A model generated the notes under the pieces. That model searched no databases. It was not told the DNA's origin and saw only the letters and a list, made by a program, of their open reading frames with translations. Of a stretch of 35,407 bases of DNA, positions 1,970-26,616 are shown one piece after another (within the stretch, counting starts at the first letter, position 1; each line of letters begins with the position of its first letter). A program made the translations under genes and the position numbers. Location of the stretch: NCBI GenBank assembly GCA_905235045.1, contig CAJOJO010000004.1, forward strand, positions 1 through 35,407, read 5' to 3'. Origin of the DNA: an uncultured Bacilli bacterium. Its GTDB lineage: Bacteria > Bacillota_I > Bacilli_A > RF39 > UBA660.

Positions 1970-1998
1970 TTGCAATACAAACAATTGTTTGTTATAAT
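1970..1998 (+). promoter_or_regulatory. SigA promoter with palindromic operator (LexA-like)
   Basis: A -35 box TTGCAA (1970-1975) and a perfect -10 box TATAAT (1993-1998) are 17 bp apart. Nearly the whole spacer is a perfect 16-bp palindrome, ACAAACAATTGTTTGT (1977-1992), whose core is CAAAC-N4-GTTTG. The same core lies in the recX promoter at 16756-16769. A repressor bound here would block RNA polymerase. LexA is the best guess because of recX, but no lexA gene is in the window. Confidence 0.8.
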
Positions 1999-2003
1999 AT
2001 AAG

Positions 2004-2124
2004 CGTATTAGATAATTTGCCTGATATCTATTATGACAATTGAGGTCGATAACGTGTATTTCTAAAGGCAAAATAGAAATATGCATGATGCGGAGTATAC
2101 TTTTTTAAAGTATGCTCTTTTTTT
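2004..2124 (+). ncRNA. Unassigned structured RNA or leader ending in a terminator
   Basis: A strong promoter and an intrinsic terminator bound about 120 nt without a convincing reading frame. A hairpin (TATTTCTA 2057-2064 with TAGAAATA 2074-2081, extendable with wobbles and mismatches) has a 9-nt loop. AGGCAAA (2066-2072), mostly in that loop, is complementary to TTTGCCT at 2016-2022, which would form a pseudoknot. A small GAC...GTC hairpin (2035-2047) lies between. The terminator (2093-2124) precedes the KilA-N gene, so this may be a small RNA or an attenuating, riboswitch-like leader. I could not match it to a known riboswitch class. Confidence 0.6.
2093..2124 (+). terminator. Intrinsic terminator of the structured RNA
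   Basis: An 11-bp stem (GAGTATACTTT with AAAGTATGCTC, one G-T wobble) closes a TTT loop and is followed by seven T residues. Transcription of the KilA-N gene from the promoter at 1970 must read through it. Confidence 0.9.
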
Positions 2125-2189
2125 ATCTGGAAAGGAGGAAAAATATATAAATATTGACCTAAACTTAAGAAAGGAGAAAAAATATGAAT
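2119..2189 (+). repeat. Direct repeat leader, copy 1 (before KilA-N gene)
   Basis: This 71-bp segment recurs at 3079-3149 with two mismatches (2129/3089 and 2137/3097), exactly 960 bp away. It carries an AAGGAG ribosome site just before the start codon and a second SD-like AAAGGAGG farther up with no ATG after it. It runs through the start codon and so transplants a complete translation start. Confidence 0.95.
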
Positions 2190-3053
2190 GATAAAATTAC
2201 AACTATTATGAATGTGAATGAAAATGAAATTAGGGTGATGAGAATTAATGATGAAGATTATATTTCGTTAACTGATTTGGCAAGATATAAAAATCCAACT
2301 GATCCATCAGATGTAATAAAAAAGTGGTTAAGTAATTATGATACAATTGAATTTTTAGGTTTATGGGAAGAATTAAGTAATAAAAAATTTAATTCGGCGG
2401 AATTCGGCCTAATTAAAAGTGAGGCACCTAAAAAGTCATTTACAATGACACCAAGTCAGTGGTGTACAAGAGTAAATGCTATAGGAATGACATATAGCAA
2501 AGGTAAATATAGTGTTGGCACATTTGCGCATTCTGATATTGCTTTAGAATTTGCTTCTTGGATTGATAATTTGTTTAAAATATATTTAATAAAAGAATTT
2601 AAAAGATTAAAATATAATGAAAGTTATCAAGAAAAAATAGAATGGTCTGTTAGAAGAAGTTTATCTAAAACTAATTATAGAATACATACTGACAGTATTA
2701 AAGAAAACATAGCCCCTAAACTTACCGAAAAACAAAAGCAATTTGTTTATGCAAGTGAAGCAGATGTAACAAATGTTGCTCTATTTGGAATGACAGCAGG
2801 GGAATGGAGACAAAATAATCCTGATTTAGAAGGTAATATTAGAGATTATGCAGATATTCTTCATCTAGTTGTTTTAAGTAATTTAGAAGTTTTAAATGCA
2901 AATATGATTGAGAATAATATAAAACAAAGTGAAAGACTAGAAAGATTAAATACTACGGCAAGAAAAGAGCTTAGTATTTTATCAAAAAATAAAAATGTAC
3001 TCGGTATTGAAAAATTAGATAAAAAATTAATAGTTGCAAAAAAAATTAAGTAA
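2184..3053 (+). CDS. KilA-N domain protein (paralogue of 34284-35132)
   Basis: A 289-residue protein. Residues about 10-140 form a KilA-N-type domain, a fold found in phage and viral DNA-binding proteins: YISLTDLARY, then FTMTPSQW, and HSDIALEFASW near its end. A helical linker follows. Residues about 180-265 form a second conserved module (LTEKQKQF, FGMTAGEWR, GNIRDYADILH) that also ends the neighbouring Bro-N protein in diverged form. The start has a good AAGGAG site. The gene sits behind the operator promoter, the structured RNA and terminator, and the repeated leader. A regulatory, antirepressor-like role is inferred from the family. No phage structural genes are nearby. Confidence 0.85.
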   Translation: MNDKITTIMNVNENEIRVMRINDEDYISLTDLARYKNPTDPSDVIKKWLSNYDTIEFLGLWEELSNKKFNSAEFGLIKSEAPKKSFTMTPSQWCTRVNAIGMTYSKGKYSVGTFAHSDIALEFASWIDNLFKIYLIKEFKRLKYNESYQEKIEWSVRRSLSKTNYRIHTDSIKENIAPKLTEKQKQFVYASEADVTNVALFGMTAGEWRQNNPDLEGNIRDYADILHLVVLSNLEVLNANMIENNIKQSERLERLNTTARKELSILSKNKNVLGIEKLDKKLIVAKKIK

Positions 3054-3058
3054 ATTTA

Positions 3059-3084
3059 AATAATAAAAAAATTATTAGTTTTTT
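3059..3084 (+). terminator. Weak terminator-like hairpin after KilA-N gene
   Basis: A purely A/T stem (TAATAA at 3061-3066 with TTATTA at 3072-3077) is followed by GTTTTTT. It is weak, so the Bro-N gene downstream is probably partly co-transcribed. Confidence 0.4.
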
Positions 3085-3149
3085 ATCTAGAAAGGAAGAA
3101 AAATATATAAATATTGACCTAAACTTAAGAAAGGAGAAAAAATATGAAT
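3079..3149 (+). repeat. Direct repeat leader, copy 2 (before Bro-N gene)
   Basis: Second copy of the 71-bp leader at 2119-2189, with two mismatches. It supplies the Bro-N gene with the same ribosome site and start context, including the first codons (ATGAAT). The promoter and structured RNA are not duplicated. Confidence 0.95.
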
Positions 3150-3989
3150 AACAAATTAGAAACTTTAACAAATTTATTTGAAGGAAAAGAAATTAGAAGC
3201 ATCTGGGATAGTGAAAAGGAAGATTACTATTTTAGTGTAGTTGATGTTATAAATGCTTTAGCAAATCCAAAGGAGCCAAGAAAATATTGGAATGATCTAA
3301 AAAAGAAACTAAGAAGTGAAGGAAGTGAGTTGTCCGAAAAAATCGGACAACTGAAAATGAAGTCACCTAAAGACGGAAAGAATTATTTAACTGATACATT
3401 AGATACAGAAGGAGTATTTAGACTTATTGAGTCGGTACCTAGTCCTAATGCTGAGCCATTTAAACTATGGTTAGCTAAATTAGGTAAACAAAAAGTAGAT
3501 GAAGTATTTGATCCGTCAAAAGGAATTGATCAAATGATAGATTTCTATTTAAAAAAAGGCTATTCATTAGAGTGGATTGAAGCCAGAATAAAAGCTATTA
3601 TAAATAGAAAAAAACTAACTAAAACTTGGAAAGAAAATGGTATTAATAGTAATGCTGAATACGCTATTCTAACTAATGAAATATATAAAGAATGGTCCGG
3701 TATGACAGCAGGTGAATATAAAAGATTCAAAAAAATTAGAAAAGAGTCACTAAGAGATAATATGACTGATATAGAAGTTCTTTTAACTGACTTAGGTGAA
3801 TTAACAACCCGTGAAATAGCTAAAACTAAAAAGCCGCAAGGATTAGATGAAAATATAGAAGTTGCCAAAAGAGGTGGTAAGGTTGCTAAAGATGCTAGGA
3901 ACTCTTATGAAAAAGCTACAAACCAAATCGCACTATCAAGTTCTAATTCACTAAATAATAAATATATTGAACACACCAATACAAAATAA
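3144..3989 (+). CDS. Bro-N (phage antirepressor-type) protein
   Basis: A 281-residue protein. Residues about 10-110 form a Bro-N domain: IRSIWDSEKEDYYFSVVDVI, RKYWNDLKKK, then TLDTEGVFRLIESVPSPNAE and FKLWLAKLG. Bro-N domains occur in phage antirepressors and baculovirus BRO DNA-binding proteins. The C-terminal half carries WSGMTAGEYKRFKKIRKESLRDNM and LGELTTREIAK (shown here as two motifs), resembling the C-terminal module of the upstream KilA-N protein. The two genes thus combine different N-terminal DNA-binding domains with a related C-terminus. The gene uses the repeated leader and ends at a clear terminator. Its target is unknown. Confidence 0.88.
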   Translation: MNNKLETLTNLFEGKEIRSIWDSEKEDYYFSVVDVINALANPKEPRKYWNDLKKKLRSEGSELSEKIGQLKMKSPKDGKNYLTDTLDTEGVFRLIESVPSPNAEPFKLWLAKLGKQKVDEVFDPSKGIDQMIDFYLKKGYSLEWIEARIKAIINRKKLTKTWKENGINSNAEYAILTNEIYKEWSGMTAGEYKRFKKIRKESLRDNMTDIEVLLTDLGELTTREIAKTKKPQGLDENIEVAKRGGKVAKDARNSYEKATNQIALSSSNSLNNKYIEHTNTK

Positions 3990-15934: not shown

Positions 15935-16736
15935 ATGAATTATTATAATGATATTAAGACATTATTAATTAATAATGAAATATATAACAAGGTAAAAGAT
16001 TACTCAAAAGAGCGTAATAGAGTTATAACTTATTTTGAAATTGGAAGATTGTTAAATGAAGCTGGTAAACATTATGGTGTTGATATAATAGGTGAATACT
16101 CAAATAAATTAGTGCTTGAAGTAAATAAAAAATATAATAAAAGAACATTATTTAGAATGCGCCAATTTTACAAATTATTTAGTAATGAAAAAGTGTCCAC
16201 AGCGTGGACACAATTAACTTGGAGTCACGTAAGATTATTATTTAGCTTCGGTATTGAAAAAATTAATTATTATATAAATGTTTCTATAGAAAGAAATCTT
16301 TCGGTAAAAGAATTAGAATATATAATAAAGTCAAATGAGTATGAAAGATTGCCAAATAAAACGAAGAAAAAAATAATACAAAATAAAAATATTGGTATAA
16401 CTGATTTAGTAAAAGATCCGATAATAATTAGGAATAATAAGAATTATGAAATAATATCAGAGAATATTTTACAAAGATTAATACTAGAAGATATATCATC
16501 CTTTTTAAAACAATTAGGTAATGGTTTTACTTTTATTGATAATGAATTTAAAATAAAAATAGGTGATAGATATAACTATATAGATTTACTTTTACATGAA
16601 TTATATTGATAAAAATATAAAAACAATTGAAGAAGATAAAACAATAGGTATAATTCTTTGTAAAGAAGGTAATGAACTTGTTATGGAATATTGTAGTGAT
16701 AATAGAATATTTAATGCTACTTATTTATGTGTGTAA
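15935..16736 (+). pseudogene. DUF1016/YhcG-family nuclease, broken by internal deletion
   Basis: The N-terminal part matches the DUF1016 N-terminal domain (YFEIGRLLNEAG, YNKRTLFRMRQFYKLF, LTWSHVRLLFSF) and reaches the start of the PDDEXK nuclease domain (YNYIDLLL). The frame then ends at 16609. The next frame, from about 16596, carries the family's C-terminal piece: MNYIDKNIKTIEEDKTIG, IILCKEGNELVMEYCSD, then a stop at 16734-16736. The segment between, which should hold the ELK catalytic residues, is absent, so a deletion that also shifted the frame removed the active site. A good AGGAGG site remains. A truncated 224-residue protein may still be made. Confidence 0.85.
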
Positions 16737-16747
16737 ACATATAGAAC

Positions 16748-16776
16748 TTGATTATCAAACAAATGTTTGATATAAT
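16748..16776 (+). promoter_or_regulatory. recX promoter with LexA-like palindrome
   Basis: TTGATT (16748-16753), a 17-bp spacer, and TATAAT (16771-16776). The spacer holds TATCAAACA-AA-TGTTTGATA (16753-16772), a perfect inverted repeat with 9-bp arms. The core, CAAAC-N4-GTTTG, has the geometry of the Gram-positive LexA box (GAAC-N4-GTTC) with altered outer bases. SOS control of recX is well known in other bacteria. Confidence 0.85.
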
Positions 16777-16791
16777 AAATATGGTGATATC

Positions 16792-17538
16792 ATGAAAATA
16801 GAAAAGATAACTAAAAAAGCTGGTAATAAATATTTATTAGAATTAGATAATAAAGATAAAATAAAAACTTATGATGAAGTTATTTTAAAGTATGGCTTAC
16901 TTTTTCATAAAGAAATAGATAATGATACTTTAGAAAAAATAATAAATGAAAATAATTATTATGATATCTATGATAAAGTATTAAAATATATAAATACTAA
17001 AATGCGTAGTGAATATGAAGTAAGAGAGTATTTAAAAAAACAAGAATATAATGATATTGATAATTTAATAAATGATTTAAAAAATAAGAAACTTATTAAT
17101 GATCAACTATTTTTAAAATCATATATTAATGATAAAATACTTCTTACTTTAGATGGACCAGATAAAATAAAAAATGATTTATTAAAACATAATATCGAAG
17201 AAAGTTTAATTAATAAAGAATTAGAAATATTTAATAGTGAAATAATAACTGAAAGATTAAAAAAAATAATTGATAAAAAAATAAAGCTAAATAAAAAACC
17301 ATTATATATATTTAAACAAAAAATGTTAGCTTATTTAATTAATTTAGGATATAGTAAAGAAGATATATTAAGTGTATTAGATAATTATAAAATAAATGAA
17401 GAAGAATTAATCAAAAAAGATTATGATATTTTATATAAAAAACTATCTAAAAAATACGAAGGCAATCAATTAGATTACCAAATAAAAAATAAACTATACC
17501 AAAAAGGGTATAGTATGGATTCAATTAATAATTTATAA
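16792..17538 (+). CDS. recX: Regulatory protein RecX
   Basis: Modulator of RecA filaments. The 248-residue protein is built of repeated three-helix modules: YINTKMRSEYEVREYLKK, then LINDLKNKKLINDQLFLKSY and further copies ending in YQKGYSMDSI. A short N-terminal beta-rich segment (MKIEKITKKAGNKYLLEL) is typical of Bacilli RecX. The start has GGTGAT at 16783-16788. Transcription is probably SOS-regulated through the palindrome in its promoter. It ends at a symmetrical terminator shared with the convergent gene on the minus strand. recA is not in the window. Confidence 0.92.
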   Translation: MKIEKITKKAGNKYLLELDNKDKIKTYDEVILKYGLLFHKEIDNDTLEKIINENNYYDIYDKVLKYINTKMRSEYEVREYLKKQEYNDIDNLINDLKNKKLINDQLFLKSYINDKILLTLDGPDKIKNDLLKHNIEESLINKELEIFNSEIITERLKKIIDKKIKLNKKPLYIFKQKMLAYLINLGYSKEDILSVLDNYKINEEELIKKDYDILYKKLSKKYEGNQLDYQIKNKLYQKGYSMDSINNL

Positions 17539-20124: not shown

Positions 20125-20336
20125 AGAAAAACATTGATAGAGAATAAGTAAAAATTACCTCTAATGGAAAGCGAGTTAGGTATGGTGGAAGCTAACACAT
20201 CTATGTAATTTTGAACAACCCTCTTGAGTTGCTTAAAAGCCGCACAAAGTGCGTTATCAAATAAAGTTTCACAAACAGTGATAATTAGGGTGGCACCACG
20301 GGTAAATCTCGTCCCTTGATTATACTGTTTTTTGTT
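20125..20336 (+). promoter_or_regulatory. T-box riboswitch, probably Asn-tRNA responsive
   Basis: A T-box leader that binds uncharged tRNA and allows read-through. The T-box core AGGGTGGCACCACGGG is at 20287-20302. The terminator form pairs the ACAGTGATAAT side (from 20274) with ATTATACTGT before a T run. The specifier region reads GAACAACCC (20213-20221): AAC (Asn, 20214-20216 or 20217-20219) fits asnS in the operon, while CAA (Gln, 20216-20218) is possible because GatCAB makes Gln-tRNA. I favour AAC, which is followed by the usual purine. Confidence 0.93.
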
Positions 20337-26421: not shown

Positions 26422-26616
26422 GATTTAAAGGCGAAAATGAAGAAATAGTAGTAAATGTTAGATTAGAAAGAGAGTTTATTGTTATGCTGAAAAATAAACA
26501 TAATCTTGATTTTATGAATTCACCTTCTAGCTGTACGGTAACGCGTTATAGTTATTGAGTATAAATTAAGGTGGTACCACGTAAATCACGTCCTTATCAG
26601 GATGTGATTTTTTTTT
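26422..26616 (+). promoter_or_regulatory. T-box riboswitch, Phe-tRNA responsive
   Basis: T-box leader controlling the hydrolase-pheS-pheT operon. The T-box core AAGGTGGTACCACG is at 26568-26581. The terminator follows (AAATCACGTCCT 26583-26594 with AGGATGTGATTT 26599-26610, TATC loop, T run). The specifier region reads GAATTCACC (26516-26524), giving TTC (Phe, 26519-26521) followed by a purine, in line with pheST downstream. Confidence 0.94.

Follow-up and report, generated by a model that had tools for sequence, protein, structure and literature searches.

The closest described counterpart of the palindromes analysed here is the LexA operator of Gram-positive bacteria (the Cheo box, CGAACRNRYGTTYC), which has the AAC-N4-GTT core and whose published Firmicutes consensus is TACGAACATATGTTCGTA (PMC2248561). 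The RNA described below resembles two known arrangements. In type III toxin-antitoxin loci the order is promoter, pseudoknotted RNA, terminator and gene (PMC5086642). In attenuating leader RNAs and riboswitches, a conserved folded 5' leader precedes an intrinsic terminator and a gene, and many loci occur per family. The proteins encoded behind the RNA, for their part, give full-length matches to the PADLOC profiles PDC-S05, PDC-S13, PDC-S22 and PDC-S23. These phage-defence candidates are predictions; we know of no validated defence activity for any of the four.

The window is the whole stretch of DNA that was analysed, 35,407 nucleotides from an uncultured Bacilli bacterium, and its promoters, boxes, RNA fold, terminator and gene families were identified from the sequence. 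Two of its promoters carry the same palindromic box:

1970 to 1998, plus strand: sigma-70-type promoter of the island, with a LexA-type operator (sequence; matrix score 16.7)
16748 to 16776, plus strand: recX promoter, with the putative LexA operator TATCAAACAAATGTTTGATA (16753 to 16772) in its spacer (sequence; matrix score 22.7)
16792 to 17538, plus strand: recX, 248 aa (Pfam RecX domains)

The island promoter has its -35 hexamer TTGCAA at 1970-1975 and its -10 hexamer TATAAT at 1993-1998, separated by 17 bp; the box CAAACAATTGTTTG (1978-1991) lies in this spacer, within a perfect 16-bp palindrome, ACAAACAATTGTTTGT (1977-1992). The recX promoter has the same spacing (-35 TTGATT, 16748-16753; -10 TATAAT, 16771-16776) and ends 15 bp upstream of the recX ATG; here the box CAAACAAATGTTTG (16756-16769) lies within TATCAAACA-AA-TGTTTGATA, a repeat with 9-bp arms. 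The preliminary description of this DNA had placed CAAAC-N4-GTTTG in the -35/-10 spacers of these two promoters, which we confirm. Within the window alone the number of motifs is not significant, as two were seen for 0.95 expected when at most one mismatch is allowed, and 23 of 100 shuffles reached two. The 884-kb draft genome to which the window belongs holds three exact copies of CAAAC-N4-GTTTG, each in a promoter, and no copy of a reversed control pattern; across 98 genomes of the family, 133 sites were tallied from the table of matches for the motif and 47 for the control pattern. Homologues of recX were found in 52 of 58 family genomes.

The box was compared with the lexA promoters of relatives. 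Thirty lexA loci were oriented and their upstream regions inspected, of which 29 had usable upstream sequence. Of these 29 promoters, 28 had a box that fits (C/G)RAAC-AWWT-GTTTGA and in most cases overlaps the -35 hexamer TTGACA, frequently together with a second box, CACGAACAWWTGTTCGTGTC. The 28 lexA boxes, with the window's own genome excluded, were used to build a weight matrix, for which 1999 control 80-mers gave a 99.9% quantile of 11.0; because only the best match of each promoter entered the training, the figure for lexA is slightly too high, and the tests on recX, on the window's own genome and on the cassettes described below concern promoters other than this training set. The two window sites scored well above the control quantile, as did the box ACGAACAAAAGTTTGAC found at lexA of both genus mates (17.6) and the third exact site of the window's own genome (17.3). 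In the recX promoters of relatives, a box exceeded the 99% control level in 14 of 29 cases, about half having none, and these boxes typically adjoin the -10 hexamer, in the same position as in the window (GTTTGNTATAAT).

A looser search of the window's own genome returned boxes upstream of ruvA (score 16.9; gene confirmed by Pfam), of a UvrD/PcrA-type helicase gene (17.5), of a rarA-like gene (14.8), and of a gene for a 163-aa protein of no assigned family. The rarA-like gene encodes an AAA-ATPase, which we take to be RarA, and is cut by the contig end. Such a genome-wide scan had been proposed in the preliminary description, and it bears out the expected link with repair genes. In the genus mates the box stands at lexA, and recA is preceded only by a related palindrome, ACGAACAAAATTTCGT, that scores 2.1. 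Neither lexA nor recA was found in the window's own draft genome, which is 78% complete; as both are missing from an incomplete draft, the absence of lexA is most likely a gap; among the other genomes of the family, 54 of 57 encode LexA, as do both genus mates. The 163-aa protein (locus L003, 1501-2056, on contig C17 of the window's own genome) has no Pfam or NCBIfam match; a LexA-type palindrome of 20 bp spans the -35 hexamer of its gene, which is a candidate SOS gene outside any assigned family.

In conclusion, an AAC-N4-GTT palindrome that overlaps promoters is found at lexA of 28 of 29 relatives and of both genus mates, and before repair genes of the window's own genome. Since it is shared with the lexA promoters of relatives, with recX and with own-genome repair-gene promoters, its identification as the LexA operator is strong by comparison, and the recX and island promoters very probably carry a LexA (DNA-damage) control site. 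For recX the identity of the operator is strongly supported, and from it we infer LexA binding. The geometry had been said to fit the Gram-positive LexA box, and the box to be a lineage variant of GAAC-N4-GTTC; both statements hold, CAAAC...GTTTG being the lineage form of the Firmicutes consensus. The two share the core, the palindromic symmetry, the position in promoters and the targets (lexA, recX, ruvA and a UvrD-type helicase gene). The lineage box differs from the Cheo box in its right arm, which is nearly always GTTTG, and in its left arm, where CGAAC, CAAAC and similar sequences occur; at one end of this range lies CAAAC-N4-GTTTG, with its perfect symmetry.

What had been overlooked is that transcription from the island promoter would first yield a structured RNA, here called R1, that carries a terminator of its own, and would only then reach the two genes of the island:

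2005 to 2124, plus strand: R1 leader RNA, with two hairpins, a loop-loop pseudoknot and an intrinsic terminator (covariance model hit of 119.7 bits; covariation)
2005 to 2034, plus strand: P1 hairpin, whose loop TTTGCC (2016-2021) is one side of the pseudoknot (covariation)
2054 to 2084, plus strand: P2 hairpin, whose loop GGCAAA (2067-2072) is the other side (covariation)
2093 to 2124, plus strand: intrinsic terminator of R1, with stem 2093-2117 and T-run 2118-2124 (sequence, fold, covariation of helix 4)
2184 to 3053, plus strand: KilA-N-domain protein, 289 aa (Pfam, 2.2e-17; full-length match to PADLOC PDC-S22, 1.6e-112)
3079 to 3146, plus strand: second copy (97%) of the 68 bp that precede KilA-N, sited before Bro-N (sequence comparison)
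3144 to 3989, plus strand: Bro-N-domain protein, 281 aa (Pfam, 1.2e-10; full-length match to PADLOC PDC-S13, 4e-108)

R1 is about 120 nt long, lies between the island promoter and KilA-N, and folds with a z-score of -3.5. The pseudoknot consists of six pairs between the P1 and P2 loops (TTTGCC/GGCAAA in the window, CTTGTC/GACAAG and others elsewhere); although absent from the search model, it has 97.9% of its alignment cells paired, and in five of the six pairs both sides vary. As a whole, the structure performed better than 500 of 500 shuffles and than every slid version. By DNA search R1 matched in 21 of 145 family genomes, some of the matches being short, and by covariance model in 55 of 386; searching the retrieved loci again returned 85 matches in 81 distinct rows, a few loci overlapping. 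In the whole class it was found in seven of 395 genomes, all of the same family. No match was obtained against the Rfam covariance models, the R1 core was absent from the viral contigs, and a search of the open-access literature returned no description of this leader RNA or of a LexA box on such cassettes. Many defence-like genes of these uncultured gut bacteria stand behind this one RNA leader, which is strongly conserved and, within the scope of these searches, undescribed.

R1 resembles attenuating leader RNAs and riboswitches in its layout and in the number of its loci; it differs from them in having no Rfam counterpart, in the defence-like genes downstream and in that no alternative antiterminator was found. 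A covariation scan for such a structure gave nothing convincing beyond P1, P2, the pseudoknot and the terminator. A leader peptide, ATGACAATT, was considered and rejected, as it does not recur in every copy. Three R1-like RNAs (L201, L214 and L252) lie just past the apparent end of an upstream gene, with no recognisable promoter, and are possibly decayed copies or 3' ends. Elsewhere in the window two T-box leaders were observed (20125-20319 and 26425-26598), the second below the Rfam gathering cut-off.

The genes behind R1 are diverse. The two window genes and the downstream genes of other cassettes were scanned together (67 proteins): ORF6N was found in 28, RhuM in 15 (13 of them with Fic), Bro-N in seven, KilA-N and YhcG/DUF1016 in five each, and ToxN in one. 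Most of these proteins match PADLOC phage-defence candidates, with full-length profiles. The KilA-N relatives found among genome contigs did not share the leader RNA, so the RNA does not go with KilA-N as such. Most cassette genes begin 11-90 nt past the terminator (about 60 nt for KilA-N), so that they would hardly be expressed except by read-through. Units of RNA plus gene occur in tandem at three loci (G015:C3, G315:C35 and G376:C23). A second leader followed by KilA-N and Bro-N is present in the window's own genome (L109, C1:51645), with a KilA-N protein 72% identical to that of the window and Bro-N split into two ORFs. The 68-bp copy at 3079-3146 duplicates the ribosome-binding site without the RNA, and is perhaps a trace of how KilA-N and Bro-N were joined. 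Between ssb and recX the window also carries a YhcG/DUF1016-type gene (15935-16609) in which the match to the nuclease domain is truncated, covering about 67 of 157 positions; this gene is probably related to those of the R1 cassettes and degraded.

The operator is a minority feature of R1 cassettes. No box was found at the 91%-identical leader copy on contig C1 of the window's own genome or at the C12 copy, and 69 of 80 cassette promoters have none. This raises the question of whether recX alone is a LexA target, the island palindrome being a chance look-alike and the cassette being controlled by the RNA leader only; a 16-bp palindrome can indeed arise by chance in AT-rich DNA, which counts against the LexA-operator explanation. 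We consider a chance origin fairly unlikely. First, the island score of 16.7 is far above background and the layout is identical to that of recX. Second, 11 of the 80 cassette promoters scored at least 7.7 for 0.8 expected from shuffles and from other 60-mers of the same loci, and six scored at least 11 for 0.1-0.2 expected, an enrichment that is somewhat overstated because some of the 80 promoters are related pairs; the scores are bimodal, the best being that of L213 (17.6) and the next that of the window. Third, the KilA-N orthologue of a further genome (L063, 71% identical) has a box of its own, TATCAAACAGTTGTTTGATA, about 120 bp upstream (score 21.0), at a different insertion where KilA-N stands alone between gmk- and pyk-like genes and where the leader RNA is absent. 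The shared operator put forward in the preliminary description is thus probable for the island itself but is not general among cassettes. One reading of these sequence comparisons is that LexA control was acquired more than once, in a minority of these genes.

A different role for the RNA is suggested by type III toxin-antitoxin systems, by analogy with which R1 would act as an RNA antitoxin, or as a partner, by binding the protein encoded behind it. The order of elements is that of type III loci, the likeness to ToxIN extending from the own promoter, the pseudoknotted RNA and the intrinsic terminator to a downstream gene expressed by read-through, and one cassette gene encodes ToxN. At the window, a terminator does separate the RNA from the gene, but the RNA is a single copy with no tandem repeats, its pseudoknot is of the loop-loop and not of the H-type, and neither protein is a toxin of the ToxN, CptN or TenpN type; moreover, the same RNA stands ahead of unrelated proteins. 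At the toxN cassette itself (L220, 2540-3060), a ToxI-like array of 34-nt repeats with its own terminator precedes the R1 promoter, the R1 RNA and toxN. Since these repeats presumably hold the antitoxin role, R1 would be a control element there, and an antitoxin function of R1 appears unlikely.

The antirepressor-like role first proposed for the two proteins would make the island a prophage remnant, with KilA-N and Bro-N acting as SOS-induced antirepressors. KilA-N does match the phage regulator families phrog_2657 and phrog_129, and Bro-N matches phrog_15286, to which no function is assigned. The neighbours of the island are polA and murG, with no phage genes, and the viral contigs held no KilA-N relative and no RNA core; polA was not found beside murG in the genus mates, which therefore provided no clean empty insertion site. 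Full-length matches to PADLOC candidates and the lack of a surrounding prophage weaken the antirepressor argument, and we regard this origin as decidedly unlikely. That CAAAC-N4-GTTTG belongs to a repressor other than LexA, such as the product of a mobile element, would fit the shift of CAAAC from the textbook GAAC-N4-GTTC and the missing lexA of the draft, but it is very improbable, given that nearly all relatives have the same box at lexA and that it also lies near ruvA, recX and UvrD-type genes.

We therefore favour, as probable, the explanation in which both palindromes are LexA operators and R1 is a generic limiter or sensor acting in cis, to which LexA adds an optional second layer. The operators would have the lineage form (C/G)RAAC-AWWT-GTTTG. 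At recX, LexA would block the promoter between the -35 and -10 hexamers and release it after DNA damage. At the island, an operator of this kind would have been gained by the promoter of a cassette of two genes, KilA-N and Bro-N, similar to phage-defence candidates that consist of a single gene. LexA would hold this promoter down; after damage, transcription would begin at about 2005 and make the R1 RNA, most of it stopping at the R1 terminator about 60 nt before KilA-N, and a fraction, or a signal-dependent share, would read through into KilA-N and Bro-N. Most likely, then, LexA would gate transcription, and the R1 terminator would limit read-through into a potentially harmful gene with a presumed defence function. 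As no conserved antiterminator was found, either the pseudoknot would act on the polymerase, or a protein or ligand would act on the pseudoknot, or the terminator would be a constant brake. In the family, R1 would be a generic cis-acting limiter or sensor of expression before many different toxin- or defence-like genes, with LexA control as an optional layer at about one in seven R1 cassettes.

It is possible, although we hold this more tentatively and on balance doubt it, that R1 represents a previously unrecognised class of sensory or attenuator RNA, through which dispersed and unrelated single-gene cassettes for phage defence or toxins would respond to one signal (phage takeover or translation stress, for instance), with LexA added at some of them; the LexA-bearing cassettes would then also answer to DNA damage.

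By comparison with relatives, the operator defines the SOS box of a family of uncultured Bacilli, in much of which the control of recX is conserved. More importantly, following the box revealed a conserved and widespread RNA by which many solitary phage-defence-candidate genes appear to be controlled. Because the RNA element is shared, this control is directly testable, and the element offers a route to further candidates, including those that belong to no known family.
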